Source: Halorubrum salsamenti
GTDB taxonomy: Archaea > Halobacteriota > Halobacteria > Halobacteriales > Haloferacaceae
Direction of reading: 5' to 3'
Assembly (NCBI RefSeq): GCF_007671685.1
Contig: NZ_VCNL01000004.1
Coordinates: 310,001-374,000, forward strand
Length of the DNA stretch: 64,000 nucleotides
In this document: piece by piece, positions 22,521-29,100 of the stretch
Position numbering within the stretch: position 1 is the stretch's first letter
Layout of the letters: each line of letters opens with the position of its first letter
Notes under the pieces: model-generated
Databases searched by the model: none
What the model was told of the DNA's origin: nothing
Seen by the model: the letters and a program-made list of their open reading frames with translations, nothing else
Program-made: the position numbers and the translations under genes

Positions 22521-22949
22521 CTCCCAGAAGCTCTGTTGAAACCCTCCGCAGGTGACACACTGTCTTGGTTGCGATCAATACAGGAGGTAGAAATATCATC
22601 CTGGGATTTGATTTGTTGAGGGAATGGCTAAGAACAGAATCAAAGAGAGACTACAGGAAGTACAAGAAGGAGACTACTTGCTGTGGAATGGAAGGACCAG
22701 CCCTCAACCCGTTACAAGCGTCAATGATGACACGTTTGTCGTGGAAGGAAGACAGGGAGGGAGGTATCGATTCTATACCTCTGGGGTTCCAAGGTTGACC
22801 AATCTAAACAGTAGAAACGACTTTGACGTTGACGAGGTGACCGTCCTCCGATCTCTATCCTCAATCAATAAGTAAGCACTTTTCAGCGATCAGCTGTGTC
22901 GGCTGATAATATATCTGAATAGTAGGATTTCAACAGAGCCCTCCCAGAA
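22521..22949. mobile_element. MITE-like insertion with 9-bp target duplication
   Basis: CTCCCAGAA occurs at 22521-22529 and 22941-22949. Between them a 411-bp segment starts GCTCTGTTGAAACC and ends with GGATTTCAACAGAGCC, whose reverse complement is GGCTCTGTTGAAATCC. These are clear terminal inverted repeats. No transposase is encoded, but one 83-codon gene is carried. It is either a non-autonomous element or a deletion derivative of an insertion sequence. Confidence 0.75.
22624..22875 (+). CDS. Passenger protein of the MITE-like element
   Basis: This 83-residue protein of unknown function starts MAKNRIKERLQEVQEGDYLL. It contains a compact beta-type pattern: GDYLLWNGRTSPQPVTSVND, DTFVVEGRQGGRYRFYTSGV and VDEVTVLRSL. 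That is reminiscent of small SH3-like folds, but this is only a guess from pattern. The gene fills most of the element between its inverted repeats, so it moves with it. Confidence 0.5.
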   Translation: MAKNRIKERLQEVQEGDYLLWNGRTSPQPVTSVNDDTFVVEGRQGGRYRFYTSGVPRLTNLNSRNDFDVDEVTVLRSLSSINK

Positions 22950-29083: not shown

Positions 29084-29100
29084 AGGATTTCAACAGAGCC
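29084..29100 (+). repeat. Solo transposon end identical to the MITE right end
   Basis: AGGATTTCAACAGAGCC here is identical to the right inverted repeat of the element at 22530-22940. No matching left end or target duplication is visible nearby, so it is either a remnant of a second copy or the product of a rearrangement. It lies 25 nt behind the integrase stop. Confidence 0.5.

Follow-up and report, generated by a model that had tools for sequence, protein, structure and literature searches.

IS231 is an IS4-type insertion sequence (IS). In Bacillus cereus, its ends are also found around a passenger gene that replaces the transposase, and such MIC231 elements are mobilised in trans by the cognate IS, as described in PMC3913671; a title cited there terms MIC231-type elements modular. 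Among haloarchaea, miniature inverted-repeat transposable elements (MITEs) of the type of HqIRS32 from Haloquadratum walsbyi and ISH2 measure about 520-531 bp and are reported to carry one non-transposase open reading frame (ORF) (PMC3119063), and ISH2 from Halobacterium is a MITE mobilised in trans by the ISH8 transposase (PMC10264941). Finally, transporter ISs (tISs) are ISs with passenger genes (PMC3129680, PMC9330008). Here we describe a segment from the archaeon Halorubrum salsamenti, located at 22529-22940 of the 64,000-nucleotide stretch that was analysed (contig NZ_VCNL01000004.1, positions 310,001 to 374,000; hereafter the window). This 412-bp segment is devoid of transposase and displays inverted termini with an 83-codon gene between them. 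We consider it, with a probability of roughly 0.9, to be a non-autonomous mobile insertion cassette (MIC) of an ISHxa2-type IS from family IS5.

Like MIC231, the window element has a passenger gene between IS ends and no transposase. It differs by its archaeal instead of bacterial host and by its IS family (IS5/ISHxa2-type ends with an 8-bp duplication), as well as by the company of some 20 different cargoes in one genome and by a junction motif located, in the related ISs, just behind the transposase stop codon. With ISH2 and HqIRS32 it shares a small size and a non-transposase ORF in a haloarchaeal context; yet these display ISH8-type ends, 10-bp duplications and one recurrent ORF, in contrast to the diverse cargoes encountered here. 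A likeness to tISs exists at the level of the family, many ISHxa2-type copies (e.g. in G007, G222, G262 and Halopiger) having a passenger between the transposase and the A end, but tISs encode a transposase and the window element none. Encoding no DDE transposase of its own, it is not an IS5-family IS proper either. Its terminal inverted repeats and 8-bp duplication also set it apart from integron gene cassettes, although attC itself was not searched for. MICs are a known kind of element; what notably stands out here is how many and how varied the cargoes of a single archaeal genome are, together with their common junction.

The segment had been reported in an earlier note, made from the sequence of the window alone, as a MITE-like insertion of 411 bp with a clean 9-bp target duplication. 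Inverted ends and identical flanks indeed bound an insertion: the arms 22530-22545 and 22924-22939 were 94% complementary and CTCCCAGAA was present twice, at 22521-22529 and 22941-22949. Both lengths required correction. The family terminus is GGCTCTGTTGAAATCC, to which the right end conformed perfectly up to 22940, while the left end, from 22529, reads AGCTCTGTTGAAACCC; the element therefore extends over 412 bp. At its terminal base, 22529, A replaces the G of the family, and consequently the ninth flank base matches by chance. Since duplications of 8 bp are the rule in the parent IS and in cleanly flanked sister elements, that of the window element was set at 8 bp (CTCCCAGA, identical on both flanks, at 22521-22528 and 22941-22948). 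The element is oriented with its B end on the left and its A end on the right. The B end module (22529-22584, plus strand), aligned with those of sister cassettes, is composed of the terminal repeat (22529-22544) and a subterminal B-type sequence beginning with TCCGCAGGTGACACA. At its inner side lies the motif GCGATCAATACAGG (22571-22584, plus strand; family consensus GCGGTCAATACAGG), which is also found directly after the transposase stop codon of the parent IS. The passenger gene (22624-22875, plus strand) starts with ATG, encodes a conserved haloarchaeal protein and is the main ORF of the element, in keeping with the earlier description of a single gene and no transposase. The A end module (about 66 bp, 22875-22940, minus strand) reads GGCTCTGTTGAAATCCTACTATTCAGATATATTATCAGCCGACACAGCTGATCGCTGAAAAGTGCT inwards, includes the terminal repeat 22925-22940 and displayed 78% identity to the 60-bp A consensus; it also aligned with other A modules.

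The shared terminus is not due to chance. With up to two mismatches, the 16-mer occurred at 58 sites of the host genome versus one for a reversed-pattern control, and the exact 16-mer was present in 271 of 391 haloarchaeal genomes, in none of which the control had a match. When the outer 8 bp were compared between 65 host termini, drawn from stretches around the pattern matches, ten exact matches were obtained where about 0.03 were expected (2080 pairs, 2080/65536). Some of these matches pair termini that are now apart through inversion (C1:785410/790089 and C1:788108/795134) or contig breaks. In the former region (L023:2411-12135, i.e. G000 C1:785410-795134, G000 being the host genome), the target duplications TCGGCAAC and GTTATTTT were swapped, which indicates an inversion of the DNA between two oppositely oriented cassettes.

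Beyond the first 16 bp, the termini fell into two distinct modules, A (about 66 bp) and B (about 56 bp). The former consists of GGCTCTGTTGAAATCC-TATTCTTCAGACACATTCTCGCCTGAAACAGCCGGTCGATGAGA, the latter, in cassettes, of GGCTCTGTTGAAATCC-TCAGCAAGTGATATATTCTGACCCGGTT-GCGGTCAATACAGG. Most host cassettes displayed one end of each type. The A module was the same in cassettes and ISs, whereas the B module of the ISs was a diverged version. A solitary perfect terminus of the family was also noticed at 29085-29100 of the window; it belongs to a second-subfamily B end extending to about 29031, with junction GCTGAATACAGAG, and no partner A end was found within the window.

Full-length ISs sharing these termini, whose existence had been raised as a point to check, turned out to be ISHxa2-type members of family IS5. 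The parent transposase has 273 aa and a DDE_Tnp_1 domain (PF01609). In the host, the gene at G000:C20:30768 begins 52 bp inside a perfect B terminus, in a copy that has lost its A end. Complete parent ISs, with A end and 8-bp duplication, were encountered in relatives (1355 bp with AGATATGT and 1211 bp with ACTATTTC). Host contig ends moreover bear matching halves with the same duplication, namely the end of C2 and the start of C4 (GAAATTTC) and the starts of C3 and C8 (GAAGATGA); the simplest reading, across assembly gaps, is that the host has two parent copies, apparently full-length, each interrupted by a contig break. ISHxa2 was the closest named IS (94.9% protein identity to the parent transposase), and its plasmid copy belongs to an element of 2490 bp that is flanked by the duplication CACCGTCT and carries an RDD-family passenger. 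Termini and 8-bp duplication are common to ISHxa2 and the window element, but the former is autonomous and the latter shares only its end modules and junction motif. No relevant paper was found when the literature was searched for ISHxa2 and for the terminus (its first 12 bases).

Families IS6 (PF13610) and IS1595 (PF12762), both generating 8-bp duplications as well, had been the first candidates for the mobilising IS. Both are present in the host genome, and the terminus is loosely similar to IS6-family ends. Nevertheless, host IS6-type copies end with GTCGCGTTAAGTT and IS1595-type copies around GATTGTTGGTGAGTC, and the exact terminus, including the 66-bp A module, was found on an IS5-type IS. 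These different ends led to the rejection of both candidates, and mobilisation by another family with similar ends is hardly credible.

A more classical view would be that of an ordinary MITE, i.e. an internal deletion derivative of an IS, the 83-codon frame being either there by chance or what is left of the transposase. Size and structure suit such an origin, and ORF-less elements of similar make-up occur in the same genome (E01, E07 and E10, without ORF of at least 60 aa). The frame, however, is unrelated to the transposase and has homologues in other genomes. It was detected in nine of the 391 haloarchaeal genomes, host included. Apart from the host, eight sampled genomes yielded nine homologues and Halorarius one more, with conserved WNGR and YRF residues. 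Ratios of nonsynonymous to synonymous substitution rates (dN/dS) of about 0.30 against G151, and proportions of synonymous (pS) and nonsynonymous (pN) differences of 0.85 and 0.14, respectively, against G229, indicate a real gene under purifying selection. This conservation contradicts a chance leftover of internal deletion, and the MITE explanation is very improbable. The earlier label "MITE-like" was appropriate for the IS ends and the short size; for an element that is coding and single-copy in its genome, mobile insertion cassette is the better term.

The mobile single-gene cassette suggested by the earlier note gained support from equivalent elements elsewhere. In G229, which belongs to another family of haloarchaea, the gene lies in a 416-bp cassette with the same ends, flanked by AACCGTTC and AACCGTCC, and the protein is 75% identical; copies with both these ends and a conserved frame, the proposed check, thus exist. 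In G004 (42%) and Halorarius litoreus (50%), it lies between degenerate ends with the second-subfamily junction motif GCTGAATA-AG. When public collections were scanned with the 83-aa sequence alone, no match was obtained; a profile search of these collections retrieved one locus, that of H. litoreus. No homologue was detected by profile search in viral contigs or by protein search in plasmids, and no convincing family was found for the protein in Pfam, NCBIfam, PHROGs, PADLOC or PDB. AlphaFold predicted an N-terminal helix followed by a small beta barrel (predicted local distance difference test score of 87.5), a fold without significant match in PDB. The homologue of G183 (L064:1393-1892) lay between the arms of another perfect inverted repeat, CTGTCGGGTCGAA, which are separated by about 500 bp and show no evident duplication.

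About 20 segments bounded by A and B modules and lacking a transposase were recorded in the host genome. Their cargoes comprise cydAB (E13), a seven-transmembrane histidine kinase (E05), a GAF/PAS kinase (E06), a FilR1-like regulator with a SnoaL protein (E04), a Peripla_BP_2 lipoprotein (E19), DUF998 (E17) and DUF7344 (E18) proteins, an Mrr nuclease (E21/E22) and small membrane proteins, as well as small lipoproteins of the twin-arginine translocation type (E03, E12 and E16, judged from their N-termini). For E19, the target site was found uninterrupted in related genomes (e.g. TTTAAATATCGT in L113). Among 19 exact-end pairs from other haloarchaeal genomes, nine were without transposase and contained other genes, several with exact duplications, and many of those with a transposase also carried a passenger.

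One IS5-type family packs some 20 different cargoes between defined ends in a single genome, from a respiratory oxidase, sensor kinases and a nuclease to lipoproteins, mostly as single genes. If these cassettes move in trans, they would offer haloarchaea an economical way of reshuffling accessory genes. A small ORF easily goes unnoticed in a MITE-like element of an archaeon; with the end modules, cargo of this sort can be sought systematically.

A relationship between cassettes and ISs was observed in a 105-aa cargo common to host cassette E08, which has no transposase, and to a transposase-bearing IS of G007. From base 45 of E08 and base 875 of the IS, the two were 95% identical through the A end, whereas their B modules differed; base 875 is the first one after the transposase stop codon. 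Occurring with and without transposase, this cargo gives a direct handle on the origin of cassettes. Of 23 distinct IS tails, 16 had the junction sequence GCGGTCAATACAG behind the transposase stop (up to three mismatches); of 20 cassettes, 16 had it at position 43-45. Past the junction, IS copies were unrelated (median ungapped identity of 28%). In L078, L081, E01 and E03, the motif was often trailed by further similar copies, CGAATCGCTCAGTACAG, with a spacing of about 25 bp.

Most likely, cassettes arose by loss or exchange of the transposase module at this junction: in a passenger-carrying IS, the module between the B end and GCGGTCAATACAGG would be lost or replaced, and cargo and A end would be kept and joined to a short B module. 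The exchange may have been ordinary recombination between short stretches of identity or a dedicated process. A bolder proposal is a haloarchaeal transposon-based gene-cassette system, in which ISHxa2-type end modules would act as exchangeable caps and cargo would be swapped between autonomous ISs and transposase-less cassettes at GCGGTCAATACAGG, the favoured junction immediately behind the transposase stop, possibly by dedicated recombination, giving an integron-like circulating pool of single genes. We regard it as speculative and rather unlikely.

As to the mobility of the window element, it combines IS terminal repeats, including the 66-bp A module, with a passenger in the absence of transposase and the cognate 8-bp duplication, which is the composition of a MIC. 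Since its termini and A module correspond to the parental ones and its B module is related to, though diverged from, that of the parent, the parent transposase most likely acts in trans on the cassette. The DDE enzyme, provided by the related transposon in the same cell, would bind and cut the cassette ends, and the cassette, in which one host-type gene stands in place of the transposase, would insert with duplication of 8 bp of target.

Several observations weigh against this interpretation. No transposition event was observed, the cassette occurs only once in the host genome, and the G to A change of its left terminal base may reduce activity, although sister cassette E12 displays the same change with an intact duplication. 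The window element's own insertion site, looked for through its flanks, had no match listed among 51 congeners. Besides, G151, from another family, holds the cargo without recognisable ends (305 bp, 89% identical to window positions 22575-22879; L103:5566-5875), and the gene can therefore also exist outside a cassette. Copies not bounded by the ends had been named in the earlier note as evidence to the contrary, and this is the one found; yet its block opens with the junction motif (TCAGTACAGG) and ends at what would be the inner edge of the A module. A search of this copy for hidden ends or another repeat pair found none, and the block was missing at that place in its seven congeners. Either the loss of the ends from a cassette or a move of the cargo without them may account for this copy.

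The mutated terminal base and the single copy, along with A and B modules that are more diverged than those of sisters, would also suit a dead relic, i.e. a decaying and now immobile cassette kept for a passenger useful to the host. Such a relic would differ from the trans-mobilised MIC in present-day activity only, and the two are not mutually exclusive. The perfect 8-bp duplication argues for a fairly recent insertion, and the parent IS is apparently present, full-length, in the same genome; we therefore hold present-day immobility to be possible but the less probable state.

Three elements with these ends deserve separate mention. At L024:3558-7023 (G000 C17:175557-179022), an element of 3466 bp, bounded by A and B ends and devoid of transposase, harbours cytochrome bd oxidase genes, cydA and one resembling that of the second subunit. 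At L027:2915-8946 (G000 C17:239914-245945), two cassettes in opposite orientation form a 6032-bp compound with outer B ends and an exact common duplication (AATGGCCC), enclosing Orc1/Cdc6-like and GNAT-like genes (names from ORF reading). On a plasmid of Halobacterium sp. DL1 (CP007061.1, 7045-7492; L178:1546-1993), a 448-bp cassette in which no gene is listed, bounded by exact ends and by the duplication GATGAACT, encodes a 72-aa zinc-ribbon-like protein and is located between an orc/cdc6 gene and cas6.
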